Source of the DNA: Actinomycetes bacterium
Lineage (GTDB): Bacteria; Actinomycetota; Acidimicrobiia; Acidimicrobiales; Bog-793
Reading direction: 5' to 3'
NCBI GenBank assembly: GCA_021796545.1
Contig: JAKABX010000006.1
Coordinates: 1-39,716 of the forward strand
DNA length: 39,716 nucleotides
A program made the translations under genes and the position numbers. This document shows, in pieces, positions 8,742 to 14,552 of the stretch. Each line of letters opens with the position of its first letter. Position 1 is the first letter of the stretch. The notes beneath the pieces were generated by a model. That model made no database searches, was not told where the DNA came from, and worked only from the letters and a program-made list of their open reading frames with translations.

Positions 8742-10040
8742 GTGGCCGACGACTCCTTCTGCTTCGTCCACGCCGCGGACTTGCACCTCGACACGCCCTT
8801 CACCGGGATCGGACGTGTGTCCGCCGGTGTTGCCCAGGTGCTGCGGGAAGCGTCGCTGCAGGCCTTCGACACCATCGTGGACCTGGCGCTGGCGCGCACG
8901 GCCGCGTTCGTGCTCTTCGCCGGCGACATCTACGACGGCGCGCAGCGGGGTCTGCGCGCGCAGCTGCGCTTCCGGGAGGGCTTGGCGCGCCTGGCCGAGG
9001 CCGGGATCCCGAGCTTCGTCGTCCACGGGAACCACGATCCGCTCGACACCGGATGGTCGGCGATCCGCGAGTGGCCCGAGAAGGTGACGGTCTTCGGGAC
9101 GACCGACGCGCGCGTCGTCCCCGTCGCACGCGAGGGCCGCACGATCGCCACCGTGCAGGGGGTGAGCTACGCGACCCCCGCGACGACGGAAAATCTCGCC
9201 CTTCGTCTCCGACGGCCGGACCACTCCGGCGTCTTGCACGTCGGGCTCCTGCACTGCGCCGTCGAGGGTGCCTCGACAGGCCACGAGAGCTACAGCCCCT
9301 GCAGCCTCGGGGACCTGCACTCAACGGGCCTGGACTACCTCGCCCTCGGTCACGTGCACCGCCACGCGGTGCTCTCGAGCGGTCCGGGGCTGGCGACGGT
9401 CGTCTACGCCGGAACCTCTCAGGCGCGAAGCGTCCGACCCGGCGAGCTCGGAGCGAAGGGGGCGGTCGTGGTCCATGTCAGCGACGCCGCGGTGCGCGAG
9501 GTCGAGTTCGTCGCCTGCGACGCCGTGCGCTTCGACCTCGTCGACGTGGACATCGCCCCGTGTGAGGACCTCGGTGCGCTGCTCGACGAGTTGGAGGCGC
9601 GCGGCCGCGACCGCGCGGGCGAGGCGGACGGCCGCTCGCTCGTGCTGCGCGGGCGCCTTGTGGGGCGCGGCGCCGTCCACGGCGACCTGCGCCGGCAAGG
9701 AAGCATCGACCAGCTCCTCGACACGCTGCGCTCCCGCGCGGCCTCGGCGCCCCCGCTCGTGTGGTGGGACGCCCTCGAGGACCGCTCTGGCCTGCCGGTC
9801 GCGCGGGAGGAGATCCGCGGGCGTGGTGACTTCGCGGCCGACCTCGTGACGCTCGCCGACGAGGTGCTCAGCGATCCGCTGGAAGCGGCACGTCTTGTGG
9901 AGGAGGGGACGGCCGGAACACCACCGAGAGCGCTGGCCACGCGCCTCGGGGAGCTGCTCGCCGATGGCGCCGCGTTGGTCGGCCTCGTCGACGAGGCCGT
10001 GGACGCCGCACTCGATGCCCTCGAGAGCGGGGCGCCGTGA
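8742..10040 (+). CDS. DNA repair exonuclease subunit, SbcD/Mre11/YhaO-like metallophosphoesterase
   Basis: The protein has 432 residues with the five metallophosphoesterase motifs in order: HAADLHLDTPF (near 10-20), LFAGDIYDG, VHGNHDPLD, LLHCAVEG and LALGHVHRH. These provide the two-metal site of Mre11-type nucleases. The C-terminal half is the variable capping/partner-binding region. By family knowledge it works with an SMC-like ATPase on DNA ends, and the next gene encodes such a partner. The GTG start at 8742 gives an N terminus matching the family exactly. The overall form resembles the YhaO branch found next to YhaN. Confidence 0.9.
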   Translation: MADDSFCFVHAADLHLDTPFTGIGRVSAGVAQVLREASLQAFDTIVDLALARTAAFVLFAGDIYDGAQRGLRAQLRFREGLARLAEAGIPSFVVHGNHDPLDTGWSAIREWPEKVTVFGTTDARVVPVAREGRTIATVQGVSYATPATTENLALRLRRPDHSGVLHVGLLHCAVEGASTGHESYSPCSLGDLHSTGLDYLALGHVHRHAVLSSGPGLATVVYAGTSQARSVRPGELGAKGAVVVHVSDAAVREVEFVACDAVRFDLVDVDIAPCEDLGALLDELEARGRDRAGEADGRSLVLRGRLVGRGAVHGDLRRQGSIDQLLDTLRSRAASAPPLVWWDALEDRSGLPVAREEIRGRGDFAADLVTLADEVLSDPLEAARLVEEGTAGTPPRALATRLGELLADGAALVGLVDEAVDAALDALESGAP

Positions 10041-10054
10041 CGGCGTTTGCCGGC

Positions 10055-10059
10055 AGGAG
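10055..10059 (+). promoter_or_regulatory. Ribosome binding site fixing the start of the SbcC/YhaN-like gene
   Basis: AGGAG lies 6 bases before the GTG at 10066. The frame is open further upstream, inside the SbcD-like gene, but the codons before 10066 give no family-like sequence, while the codons from 10066 begin the conserved ATPase N terminus. Confidence 0.7.
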
Positions 10060-10065
10060 TCGGTC

Positions 10066-12840
10066 GTGAGGATCACCGGCTGGCGGATCGACGGCTACGG
10101 CGCCCTGCGCGACGAGCTCGTCGAGGATCTCCCCGCGGGCCTCACGGTCGTCCACGGGCCGAACGAGGCGGGCAAGTCGAGCTTGCTGTCCTTCGTGCGC
10201 CACATCCTCTTCGGCTTCCCCGACGGGCGAAGCCGCGAGGCCGACGGTCGCCCGGTCCAAGGCGGGCGCCATGGGGGCGCCCTGTTCCTCGCGGACGACC
10301 GGGATGAGTATGTGCTCGAGAGGCACGCCGACAGCCGCCAAGTTGTCCTGCACACCCGCGCCGGCACACCGCTCGACGAGACGGCCCTGCTGCGCCTGCG
10401 CGGCGGTGCGGACCGGACCCTGTTCGCGGCCGTCTTCGCGTTCGGGCTCGACGAGCTCGCATCGCTGCGTACCCTGCAGGAGGACGAGGTGCGCGAACGC
10501 GTCTTCTCCGCCGGCGTCCTCGGCGCCGGACGTTCGGCCCATGCGGCGGTGCGCGCGCTCCAGGCTCGCCAGGACGAGCTCGTCCGCAAGCGCGCGGGCG
10601 GCGCACGGGCGAACGATCTGTGGAAGCGGCTCGTCGACATCGACGACCGGCTGCGGGCCGCGCGTGCCGACGCGCGGCGCTTCCCCGAGGTCGCCCGCGC
10701 ACAGGCTGGTCTCGAGGAGTCCCTCGCCACCCTGCGCGCAACGAGGGAAGACCACGCCGCCCGCATCGCCGAGCTCGATCTTCTGAGCGCCGCCTGGACG
10801 ACCCAGGACGCCGCCGACACCGCCCGACGCGAGCTGGCGGCGCTCGGGCACCGACGAGAAGACGAGACCCTCGCCGCCGCCGCGGCGGCGATCGAGAGGC
10901 TTGGCGCCACAGCCGACGCGCACCAGGCCGACCGCCGCCGCCATGAGCGCCTCGGCGCCCAGCGCCGCGAGCTCGCGGAGGTGCTGCGGCGCGAGCGCGC
11001 GCTCCTCGAGGAGCTGGGCGCGCGTCCTCCCGACGCTCCGGTGCGCGCCGAGGACGTGGAGGTGGCTGACGCGCTCGCCCGGCACCACGGTGAGGCCGTC
11101 GCCGTGCTCGCGCACTGCCGGCGCGCGCTCGCGACGGCCGAGGAGGAGCGTGCGGCACGCGAAGCCGCCCTCGCTGAGCACAGAACCGGCGAGACCTTGG
11201 CGAGCGCCGACGAGCTCGTCGAGATCCGACGACGCCTCGGCGACCTGCGCTCCCGCCTCGCCCACCGCGACCGGCTTCTCGCCGCGGCACGCGACGAGCG
11301 CGTGGAACGCCTGGCCCGGCGCCGAAGTGGCATCGACAACGGCCTCATCGGGCTCCTGGCCGCTCTCGCGGTCCTGCTCGCCGCCGCGGCCGTGCTCGCG
11401 GCGCGCGCACACGCCGGTGCCGCCGCGGCCCTCTCGGCGGCCGGCGCGCTCGGGCTCCTCGTCGTCTGCGCCCTTCTGGCCCGCCGCGCGCGCCGCTTCG
11501 ACGCGAGCGGCGAGGACGCGGGCCGCGAGGAGGAGCTCGCCCGCGTGCAGGCGCAGGTCGCCTCCCAGGCGGCGGCACTCGGCCTCCCGGTTCCGGTCGG
11601 GGCGGAGGACCTCGAGGAGCGCGCGGAGCAGCTCCGCCGGGACGAGGACGCGCGCGCCCGGTACGATCACGCCGCAGAGGCGGCGAGCGCAGCCCGGGTC
11701 AACGCGCGCCGCGCCGAGGAGGAGGCGCACCACGCTGCGGAGCAGGTGCGCGAGACCGACGACCGGCGCCGCGTCCTCGCGACGCGCCTCGGCCTGCCGG
11801 CCGACCTCGACCCCGCGCGCCTCGGCGACGGCGCCCGGCGCCTCGAGAGCGCGTGGCGCACCGCCGAGGAGCTCAAGCGCGTGGACGAGGGGCTCGCGGA
11901 GCTCTCCGCCGCGCTCGAGGCCGCAGAGCAGCAAAAGGCTGCCGTCCTCGAGCGCGTGGCACCCGCGCTCGCCGACGTGCGCGGGGCCGACGACCTCGAT
12001 GCGCTCCTCGCCGAGGCCCGCAAGGCCGTTCAACGGGTCGCGCGGCGCGCGCGCCTCGAAGACGAGCTGGCCGGGGCGGAGCGCCATCTCGCCGCGACCT
12101 TCGGCGCGGGGGACCGCGCCGATCGCCTGCGCTCGGAGCTCGCGACCGGACAGGTCCTCGCCTGGCAGGACGAACGCACCCGGCGGAGCGCCGCGCTCGA
12201 GGACATCGACGTCCACATCGAGGAGCTCGTCGCGAGGCGGACCCGGGCGGAGGTCGAGGCGAGCGCGCTCCTCAGCTCCGCGGAGATCGCCGAGCTCGAG
12301 CTCGAACGCGCGGGCGTCGTGGCGGACCTCGACGCGGCGCTGCGCGCCTTTGCGCTCCACGGCACCGCCAAAGCCCTTCTCCGGCGCACCCTTGCGCGCT
12401 ACGAGCGCGAGCGCCAGCCTGCGGTCATCCGTGCCGCGGGCGGACTTTTCGCCGAGATCACCGACGGTCGCTACAGCTCCCTCGTCGCCCGGGAGGCCGC
12501 CGAGGTGCGCGGCGGGGCGCCGGGGATCGACGTCCTCGCGCCCGACGGGCGCCGCATCGAGTCGGACCGCCTCAGCCGGGGTGCGCAGGAGCAGCTCTAC
12601 CTCTGCTTGCGCCTCGCGCTGGCGGCGGACTTCGCCGAGCGGGCGGCACGCCTCCCCCTCCTGCTCGACGACGTGCTGGTGAACTTCGACCCCGGACGCG
12701 CCAAGGCCGTGGCCCGCGCCCTGGCGGCCACGGCGAAAGACAACCAGGTCCTGGCCTTCACCTGCCATCCCCACGTCGTCGCCCTGCTCACTGACGCCCG
12801 ACCCGACGCCCGTCTGGTCGAGCTCGCGCGCCGGCCCTGA
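10066..12840 (+). CDS. SbcC/YhaN-like SMC-type ATPase with central membrane segment
   Basis: The protein has 924 residues. The N-terminal half ATPase carries the Walker A motif GPNEAGKS (31-38), followed by ILFGFPDGR. Long Ala/Arg/Glu-rich coiled coils flank two hydrophobic helices at about residues 425-480. The C-terminal half has the ABC signature-like LSRGAQEQLYLCLRLALA (from ~836) and the Walker B motif LLLDDVLVNFD (ending ~875). This is the layout of YhaN-type proteins, which differ from classical SbcC by having membrane helices and no obvious zinc hook at the coil apex; no CxxC was seen. It should pair with the upstream SbcD-like nuclease (25-base gap, same strand) in DNA-end processing, perhaps at the membrane. 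Confidence 0.88.
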   Translation: MRITGWRIDGYGALRDELVEDLPAGLTVVHGPNEAGKSSLLSFVRHILFGFPDGRSREADGRPVQGGRHGGALFLADDRDEYVLERHADSRQVVLHTRAGTPLDETALLRLRGGADRTLFAAVFAFGLDELASLRTLQEDEVRERVFSAGVLGAGRSAHAAVRALQARQDELVRKRAGGARANDLWKRLVDIDDRLRAARADARRFPEVARAQAGLEESLATLRATREDHAARIAELDLLSAAWTTQDAADTARRELAALGHRREDETLAAAAAAIERLGATADAHQADRRRHERLGAQRRELAEVLRRERALLEELGARPPDAPVRAEDVEVADALARHHGEAVAVLAHCRRALATAEEERAAREAALAEHRTGETLASADELVEIRRRLGDLRSRLAHRDRLLAAARDERVERLARRRSGIDNGLIGLLAALAVLLAAAAVLAARAHAGAAAALSAAGALGLLVVCALLARRARRFDASGEDAGREEELARVQAQVASQAAALGLPVPVGAEDLEERAEQLRRDEDARARYDHAAEAASAARVNARRAEEEAHHAAEQVRETDDRRRVLATRLGLPADLDPARLGDGARRLESAWRTAEELKRVDEGLAELSAALEAAEQQKAAVLERVAPALADVRGADDLDALLAEARKAVQRVARRARLEDELAGAERHLAATFGAGDRADRLRSELATGQVLAWQDERTRRSAALEDIDVHIEELVARRTRAEVEASALLSSAEIAELELERAGVVADLDAALRAFALHGTAKALLRRTLARYERERQPAVIRAAGGLFAEITDGRYSSLVAREAAEVRGGAPGIDVLAPDGRRIESDRLSRGAQEQLYLCLRLALAADFAERAARLPLLLDDVLVNFDPGRAKAVARALAATAKDNQVLAFTCHPHVVALLTDARPDARLVELARRP

Positions 12841-12853
12841 GCGCGCACGGCAC

Positions 12854-13471
12854 TCAGTCGAATGCGGCCTCGCCGGCGAGGAGATAGGGCGCGCGCGCCT
12901 GGTCCCAGCCCGTCACGACGGCGACGAAGACGAGGAAGGTCAGCGCATGCACGGTCGTGCACCAGATGCAGATCGCGTGGATCTCGTAGAGCTCGGCGTA
13001 GACGAGGTAGCAGACCATGGCGATCCCGACGACCGCGCCCGCGAGGCGCGCCGGTGCGACGTAGCGGTTCGCCGAGCGCCACGCGGCCGGAAGGCACAGG
13101 GCGAGCATCGGCACGAAGTAGACGAGCCCGAGGATCGCGACGGGGATCCCGAAGATGAACGACTGCGGGCTCGTCGTGACCTTCTGGCAGTCGACGGCGC
13201 CGTGCGTGCTGCCGAGGGGACACGACAGGCTCCCGGGCTGGAAGTGGGCGACGGTGAGGTAGGTCGAGACCCCGAGGGCGAGCACGCACAGCAGCGGCGT
13301 GACATAGGCGCGCCAGTGGCGCCCGAGTGCCGTCGGCTCCTCGACCACCGTCTCCTGGGGCCCCGCGGGCGGCCGCGCGCGGTGCTCGCGCAGGCGGCGG
13401 CGCGGCGGCGGGGGGGGTGGTGCCGGCGCGCGGCGCCGGCGTCCCCTCTCAGCGGTCGGCGGCTTGGGCAC
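12854..13471 (-). CDS. Vitamin K epoxide reductase (VKOR) family protein
   Basis: The 205-residue protein starts with a Pro/Arg-rich cytoplasmic tail (seven Pro in a row around residues 17-23) followed by four to five membrane helices. The four VKOR cysteines are present: the loop pair C84 and C95 and the active-site pair C168-I-W-C171. There is a Ser in the conserved region between them (TTSPQS). By family knowledge, bacterial VKOR reoxidises a secreted thiol oxidase and passes electrons to quinone, replacing DsbB. The DUF929 protein gene with a CPYC motif is 7 bases upstream in the same operon and is the likely partner. The GTG start at 13471 was chosen by frame; convergent with the SbcC-like gene (13-base gap). 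Confidence 0.88.
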   Translation of the reverse strand: MPKPPTAERGRRRRAPAPPPPPPRRRLREHRARPPAGPQETVVEEPTALGRHWRAYVTPLLCVLALGVSTYLTVAHFQPGSLSCPLGSTHGAVDCQKVTTSPQSFIFGIPVAILGLVYFVPMLALCLPAAWRSANRYVAPARLAGAVVGIAMVCYLVYAELYEIHAICIWCTTVHALTFLVFVAVVTGWDQARAPYLLAGEAAFD

Positions 13472-13478
13472 CCGCCCG

Positions 13479-14552
13479 CTAACCCACCGGCTTCACGGTC
13501 GCCAGGGTCTTCGCCGCCGCGGTGACCCCGGGGGAGGCGCAGACCGAGGCCGGCGCGTGGCCATCGACGTCACAGATCGCTGCCGCGAGGTAGTTCGCCT
13601 CCACGATGAACTGGGAGGCCTGGATCGCCTTGCCCGTCGGGGAGTCCGGCGAGTGGATCGCGTTCGCGATCGCGAGGCGGCCCGGACCGCCGTTCTGCAG
13701 CACGCCGGAGCTGACCACGCCGTAGAGGCCCGGCGAGGAACCCGCGACCACGTACTTGTTCGCGATGTCGAGGAAGGGGATGCCGGGGCTCTGCCACATC
13801 CCGCTCGCGAACTTGGAGGGCTGACCCGTCGTCGGGTCGCCGTCGTACTTGAGATAGAGGCTGTTCACGTCGGCCGGCACCTTCTGGAGCGGCTTTTGGA
13901 GGCGGTCGGCGGCCTCGTAGGGGGTGAACGCCACGTACTTGCTCGTGTAGTGCGAGCCGAGGAAGCTGAAGGTCGGGATGTTGAGGTCGTTCGGACCCGA
14001 CGAGGTCTTCTTCAGCCCCGAAAAGGTACCGAAGCGGCTGAGCGCCGCCACGATCGAGTAGCGCGTCACCGCGCAGTAGGGGCAGTACTCGGCGCCCTCG
14101 TAGACAAAGCGCGGCTTGCCCCCGAGCGTGAGGCGCGGCTGGTTGGCCGTGACGGCGAACGCGGCGGGTTGCCCGGCGACGCCGACGGTGTTGAACACCG
14201 ACGCGGGGATCGTCGTGAGCGCGTTCACCTCGGCGGCCGGCGCCGCGACCGGGTTGCGGTCGGCGGCCGAGGTGCCCGAGTTCGCGCTCGATCCCCCGCT
14301 CGTCAACTTCACGACGACGAGCGCGATGACGACAGCGAGGACGACCCCCACCGCGATCCAGCCGAAGCGCTTGCCGAAGGTCGACTTCTGGCGTGCCCGC
14401 TCGTAGCGGCGCTGGGCGCCGCCTTGGCGACGCGGCGGCGGCTGCTGGCCGCCGAGGCGACGCGGTCCGCCGCCGGTGGACGCCGACTGACCCGGTCCGC
14501 GGGAGGCGCCGCCCGGCCGTGACGTTCCCTGCGGCCGTTTCGTCGATGCCAT
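13479..14552 (-). CDS. DUF929 family membrane-anchored thioredoxin-like protein
   Basis: The 357-residue protein has a basic, Gly/Pro-rich cytoplasmic region (1-60), one membrane helix (about 65-82) and an extracytoplasmic domain. The redox motif is C157-P-Y-C160 in YEGAEYCPYCAVTRYSI, followed by VAALSRFGTFSGL and later IPTFSFLGSHYTSKYVAFTPYE. These match DUF929, a family with a thioredoxin-like fold first seen in archaea. A thiol-disulfide oxidase role outside the membrane is inferred from CxxC and from the VKOR gene 7 bases downstream. A good ribosome site (AGGAGAGGA) precedes the ATG. The 131 bases between it and ispG hold no gene. Confidence 0.83.
   Translation of the reverse strand: MASTKRPQGTSRPGGASRGPGQSASTGGGPRRLGGQQPPPRRQGGAQRRYERARQKSTFGKRFGWIAVGVVLAVVIALVVVKLTSGGSSANSGTSAADRNPVAAPAAEVNALTTIPASVFNTVGVAGQPAAFAVTANQPRLTLGGKPRFVYEGAEYCPYCAVTRYSIVAALSRFGTFSGLKKTSSGPNDLNIPTFSFLGSHYTSKYVAFTPYEAADRLQKPLQKVPADVNSLYLKYDGDPTTGQPSKFASGMWQSPGIPFLDIANKYVVAGSSPGLYGVVSSGVLQNGGPGRLAIANAIHSPDSPTGKAIQASQFIVEANYLAAAICDVDGHAPASVCASPGVTAAAKTLATVKPVG

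Follow-up and report, generated by a model that had tools for sequence, protein, structure and literature searches.

The results presented here reveal a gene for a DUF929 protein directly ahead of a gene for VKOR in a 39,716-nucleotide stretch of actinobacterial DNA (the window). The two genes are highly likely to encode one extracytoplasmic disulfide-forming pathway, in which the CxxC-type DUF929 protein acts as thiol oxidase in the role of DsbA and VKOR re-oxidises it. In the proposed mechanism, CxxC-type DUF929 would be a membrane-anchored, thioredoxin-fold thiol oxidase that passes its C157-C160 disulfide to newly exported proteins. C84 and C95 in the loop of VKOR would then re-oxidise the reduced C157 and C160, and the electrons would move on to C168/C171 and then to the membrane quinone. 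We infer which way the electrons flow, which proteins are the substrates, that DUF929 and VKOR make contact, and that quinone is the acceptor. The case for a candidate oxidase is built on gene pairing, co-occurrence, the exchange of DUF929 for DsbA and of VKOR for DsbB, invariant cysteines, and a predicted thioredoxin-like fold. Judged by the consistency of the pairing across genomes, CxxC-type DUF929 is very probably the disulfide-bond maker of these bacteria and of some archaea. DUF929-VKOR most likely works like DsbA-VKOR, with a hitherto unassigned thiol oxidase in the place of DsbA. A thiol-oxidase role for DUF929 was not found in the literature searched on this family.

The two genes match Pfam families PF06053 (DUF929; E=4.1e-16; 59.7 bits, curated cut-off 24.6) and PF07884 (VKOR; E=3.1e-26; 92.5 bits, curated cut-off 27.5), and the features are listed in Table 1. 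The description in the earlier note, of a membrane-anchored CPYC protein encoded 7 bases ahead of a VKOR, agrees with the open reading frames, the gap and the Pfam families. The gap is consistent with a single transcript. The window VKOR, which matches PDB 4nv2 (a VKOR-thioredoxin protein; E=2.4e-6), contains C62, C84, C95, C126, C154, C168 and C171. The four assigned as redox cysteines (84, 95, 168 and 171) are all present, as the earlier note had it, and are kept in 96 to 97 of 97 DUF929-paired VKORs. The DUF929 protein has four cysteines, C157, C160, C327 and C338. The last two were missing from the earlier account and probably serve as a structural or auxiliary pair. Hydropathy detects a single hydrophobic stretch (58-90), preceded by a tail with 14 K+R and 1 D+E. 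Given the basic tail ahead of the anchor, we infer from the positive-inside rule that the DUF929 domain should lie outside the cytoplasm. The genome of the window is a 68%-complete assembly of 120 contigs. A long frame on the plus strand (window 9895-12840) runs towards the VKOR gene from the opposite strand; it resembles an SbcC/YhaN-type ATPase and has a nucleotide-binding motif.

Table 1. Features of the DUF929-VKOR locus in the window
Feature	Position	Strand	Basis
DUF929 protein, CxxC type, 357 aa, ATG start	13479..14552	-	ORF, translation, Pfam PF06053
VKOR, 205 aa, GTG start	12854..13471	-	ORF, translation, Pfam PF07884
Intergenic gap, 7 bases, DUF929 to VKOR	13472..13478	-	
DUF929 N-terminal membrane anchor, residues 61-85	14298..14372	-	AlphaFold helix 61-85; hydropathy segment 58-90
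DUF929 CPYC motif, C157-P-Y-C160, proposed redox-active pair	14073..14084	-	
DUF929 P259 (GIPF), proposed cis-proline of thioredoxin fold	13776..13778	-	Invariance
DUF929 C327 and C338 (C-x10-C), second cysteine pair	13539..13574	-	Conservation
VKOR loop cysteines C84 and C95	13187..13222	-	Conservation; role from known VKOR chemistry
VKOR CIWC, C168/C171, proposed quinone-side pair	12959..12970	-	Conservation; role from known VKOR chemistry

DUF929 and VKOR occur together well beyond the window. In a phylum sample of 296 genomes, DUF929 is present in 16 and VKOR in 74. All 16 DUF929 genomes encode VKOR, compared to 58 of 280 others (Fisher p=6e-11), and in each of the 16 VKOR lies directly downstream of DUF929 on the same strand. 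The order sample of 218 genomes comprises 57 with both genes, 7 with DUF929 only, 17 with VKOR only and 137 with neither; thus VKOR is found in 57/64 DUF929 genomes compared to 17/154 others (Fisher p=4e-29), and it is directly downstream in 51 of the 57 that have both. The sampled genomes share kinship, which makes the p values optimistic rather than strict probabilities, but that the contrasts in co-occurrence are not due to chance is not in doubt. The prevalence of DUF929 without VKOR, which had been named as evidence against the pairing, is therefore not the pattern in either sample. The survey of neighbours that the earlier note proposed also bears out direct adjacency in a third set, the best 80 relatives of the window DUF929 in the GTDB collection, which are from Actinomycetota, Chloroflexota, Bacillota and archaea: VKOR is directly downstream in 65. 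In the other 15, one locus (L083) has VKOR ahead of its DUF929 genes, two end near a contig edge, and the remaining 12 belong to 11 genomes, with VKOR elsewhere in 8 and none in 3. The VKOR start codon overlaps the DUF929 stop codon in many relatives (ATGA). Fusions of VKOR with DUF929 were absent from the 80 loci searched. Among culturable actinomycetes, Kribbella and Intrasporangium carry both genes as a pair.

Some loci contain one VKOR flanked by two or three CxxC-type DUF929 genes (L061, L064, L072, L083, L099 and L106). The arrangements are D-V-D, D-D-V and V-D-D-D (D, DUF929; V, VKOR), and they point to a single VKOR recharging several DUF929 paralogs. More than one copy of DUF929 is present in 25 of 64 DUF929 genomes of the order, and the single-copy layout, as in the window, is the commonest. 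One VKOR-linked paralog (L019 1123-2064) has CTGC in place of CPYC; the other copy in that genome (L013) has CPYC, but VKOR is not adjacent.

DUF929 takes the place held by a DsbA at other VKOR loci. Among 88 VKOR genes in the phylum sample, DUF929 is upstream in 16, and a gene for a Thioredoxin_4 (DsbA-type) protein has the same upstream position and strand in at least 27. Among the Thioredoxin_4 matches listed, 45 of the 88 have neither upstream, and no genome of the phylum sample has both DUF929 and Thioredoxin_4 ahead of the same VKOR. Among thioredoxin-like classes, the partner survey covered DsbA proteins of the Thioredoxin_4 class. Of the 64 genomes of the order with DUF929, 56 show no match to that class and only three a strong one. 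No Thioredoxin_4 protein was found in the genome of the window, as represented by its 68%-complete assembly. A separate DsbA tied to this VKOR had been named as an observation that would count against DUF929; no Thioredoxin_4 gene adjoins the DUF929-linked VKORs. Adjacency of this kind has been read as a sign of function before. The gene for Mycobacterium tuberculosis DsbA (Rv2969c) is genetically linked to that for VKOR (Rv2968c), and both structure and peptide binding support the functional link between the two proteins (PMC3792642).

The oxidase next to DUF929 can also change. VKOR and DsbB share no homology but do the same job, recharging DsbA through quinone (PMC12453122, PMC12421883). 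DsbB is encoded in 4 of 12 genomes that have DUF929 but no VKOR, and it adjoins DUF929 in all four. In two of these (L172 and L173) DsbB is ahead of DUF929 in tandem with overlapping ends; in the other two (L174 and L175) the genes are convergent, with gaps of about 60 and 90 bases. Each of the four DsbB proteins keeps both of its cysteine pairs (PCxxCWxQR and C-x5-C). L174 and L175 are closely related, so the exchange amounts to about three cases, not four. A neighbour that may be either VKOR or DsbB is easiest to understand if DUF929 is the protein that they recharge. VKOR was not detected in 7 DUF929 genomes of the order, and in six of these DsbB is absent as well. One archaeal genome (G437, L168) has a complete CxxC-type DUF929, and neither VKOR nor DsbB was found in it.

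The residues that the mechanism would require are conserved. In an alignment of 97 DUF929-VKOR pairs (81 non-redundant), C157 and C160 are kept in 95 of the 95 DUF929 proteins in which the columns are present; thus the CxxC is not the non-conserved motif that the earlier note had named as a reason for doubt. P259, C327 and C338 are invariant in the 97 pairs. In two DUF929 alignments (A1 and A2), P259 is again invariant and the four cysteines are invariant or nearly so. PF06053 matches 93/93 members of A2 at E<=0.01. On the VKOR side, C84 is kept in 96/97 and C95, C168 and C171 are each kept in 97/97.

The outer domain of DUF929 probably has a thioredoxin-like fold, an assignment of moderate strength. 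The AlphaFold model of the outer domain, built with 93 relatives, has a pLDDT of 94.6 and a pTM of 0.93. In the model of the whole protein, the CPYC cysteines are at the start of helix 158-171. In that of the outer domain, P259 falls within an IPF motif that precedes a strand, and the stretch between the CxxC helix and the putative cis-Pro strand is rich in strands, with one 11-residue helix. The 50 best structural rows from VIA-align are nearly all thioredoxin-fold proteins (Z 5.5-6.7 over 82-127 residues), including thioredoxins, TlpA-type proteins and DsbAs, with a best Z of 6.7 over 84 residues; the outer domain by itself gives Z 5.5-6.6. Foldseek returned no match to the DUF929 models with E under 0.001, and the best E was no better than 0.07. 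A profile comparison from 2010 placed DUF929 in the thioredoxin fold/clan (PMC3091736). With middling Z values and no strong single match, the fold assignment leans on the agreement of the structural rows, the positions of the CxxC and proline, and that earlier placement. A direct sequence search of solved structures with DUF929 gave nothing significant, and the best profile match, M. tuberculosis MPT53 (E 0.047), covers only the CxxC stretch. Thioredoxin_4 and DSBA profiles have no match in the window DUF929 at E<=1 and none among the 93 relatives at E<=0.01; by sequence, DUF929 is not a DsbA. A few members have matches to RecU, which were taken as chance.

Pfam DUF929 combines two types, of which the CxxC type alone follows the distribution of VKOR. 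Among 200 genomes sampled from the archaeal phylum around L107, DUF929 is above the cut-off in 10 and VKOR is present in 49; 8 of the 10 have both (p=2e-4). The highest-scoring archaeal copies, of which a genome can have as many as six, are mostly CPxG where readable, lack the C-terminal cysteine pair and the PF motif, and do not adjoin VKOR (paralogs at L137, L138, L140 and L147-L150). In our reading, which is based on a Sulfolobus acidocaldarius control and Pfam scores, the genomes with the CPxG type are Sulfolobales. One archaeal genome (G431) lacks VKOR, and both of its DUF929 copies that were read are CPxG. The CxxC-type archaeal proteins (six from fetched loci and four by region) keep all key residues. 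The CxxC copy adjoins VKOR in G296 (twice) and G485, lies within a few kilobases of it in G348 and G479, and is far off elsewhere. Most Sulfolobales-type members are CPxG and lack both cysteine pairs, and therefore cannot be thiol oxidases of this kind. The earlier suggestion that DUF929 is the thiol oxidase of the lineage is thus supported for the CxxC type, by the pairing with VKOR, the conserved CxxC and the DsbA position, and does not extend to the whole family because of the CPxG paralogs. A plasmid of Cutibacterium modestum (AP024748; L164 4430-5627) also encodes a CxxC-type DUF929 (CPFC), annotated as hypothetical. It lies 7 bases behind a gene for a small protein that has three cysteines and an N terminus resembling a signal peptide, and no VKOR is among the neighbouring genes read.

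In a VKOR tree of 145 columns and 80 rows, in which many forks are unresolved, the DUF929-paired VKORs cluster, with four label changes compared to 24.5 by shuffling. A long branch (3.28) parts them from most of the Thioredoxin_4-paired VKORs sampled, and the DUF929-paired group also takes in the VKORs of archaea and a single Thioredoxin_4-paired VKOR. DUF929 distances correlate with VKOR distances (Mantel r 0.67, 0/2000 permutations). Such a correlation is also expected from vertical inheritance of an operon, and the neighbourhood could have been conserved by descent without direct functional coupling. This is very improbable, given that the pairing spans bacteria and archaea, survives rearrangement (D-V, D-V-D and V-D-D-D), and persists with VKOR swapped at the same spot for the unrelated oxidase DsbB.

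The strongest rival on the chemistry of DUF929, itself improbable, is that the protein isomerises or reduces disulfides, in the manner of DsbC/DsbG or TlpA/ResA, is kept reduced by a CcdA/DsbD-type protein and adjoins VKOR only through a common envelope redox metabolism. CPYC is also found in glutaredoxins and DsbG, and the motif alone therefore does not mark an oxidase. Moreover, TlpA and DsbE-type reductants are among the structural matches, with Z values tied with the DsbA rows, and a few DUF929 members have weak matches to the DsbE profile. However, DUF929 is directly partnered by an oxidase, which may be VKOR or the unrelated DsbB, DUF929 fills the DsbA position at VKOR loci, and most surveyed DUF929 genomes have no Thioredoxin_4 DsbA for VKOR to serve. 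It is also possible, if unlikely, that DUF929 is recharged by VKOR but is specialised for a single cognate exported protein, or a small number of them, rather than being a general oxidase. This is a narrower form of the favored explanation, and the confidence placed in the two overlaps. The several loci at which two or three DUF929 genes flank a single VKOR, the presence of more than one copy in the 25 genomes noted above, and the Cutibacterium plasmid gene behind that for a small secreted cysteine-containing protein are as expected of a dedicated oxidase. The commonest layout is nonetheless the single copy, and most DUF929 genomes have no other DsbA of the Thioredoxin_4 class. Whether the oxidase is general or dedicated is less certain than the oxidase chemistry itself.

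The proposed role as an exported thiol oxidase recharged by VKOR offers a testable function for a Pfam family that lacks an assigned one. It would fill the DsbA position left vacant in many genomes of the order and in some Chloroflexota and archaea, and it suggests that VKOR need not have a DsbA as its partner. The name thiol oxidase fits only the CxxC type, not Pfam DUF929 entire. A more extensive proposal is tentative, and we consider it slightly less probable than its converse: CxxC-type DUF929 may form a separate class of thiol oxidase that was recruited independently and acts as the sole general DsbA in large groups of bacteria and in some archaea. On this view it could be recharged by either VKOR or DsbB, and it would be the source of a large set of Sulfolobales-type paralogs that lost redox activity and were reused outside the cell membrane.

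Finally, the proposed pathway resembles several known systems. M. tuberculosis Rv2969c has a thioredoxin fold, a CPxC motif (CPAC), a second cysteine pair and a gene next to that for VKOR (PMC3792642), as would hold for DUF929. However, in Rv2969c, which is a DsbA, a helical domain interrupts the thioredoxin fold, whereas the insertion in the DUF929 model is strand-rich plus one helix, and DUF929 gives no Thioredoxin_4 or DSBA match. The VKOR-thioredoxin fusion of Synechococcus (3kp9, 4nv2 and 4nv5), the nearest solved relative of the window VKOR, likewise couples VKOR to its own thioredoxin-fold partner, but as one protein, whereas the window has separate genes. Sulfolobales-type DUF929 belongs to the same Pfam family, but differs in having CPxG, no C-terminal cysteine pair, many copies and no VKOR beside it. 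The proposed logic is the same as that of E. coli DsbA-DsbB, in which a membrane protein linked to quinone recharges an exported CxxC oxidase, but in the window the oxidase is of another family and the re-oxidant is VKOR.
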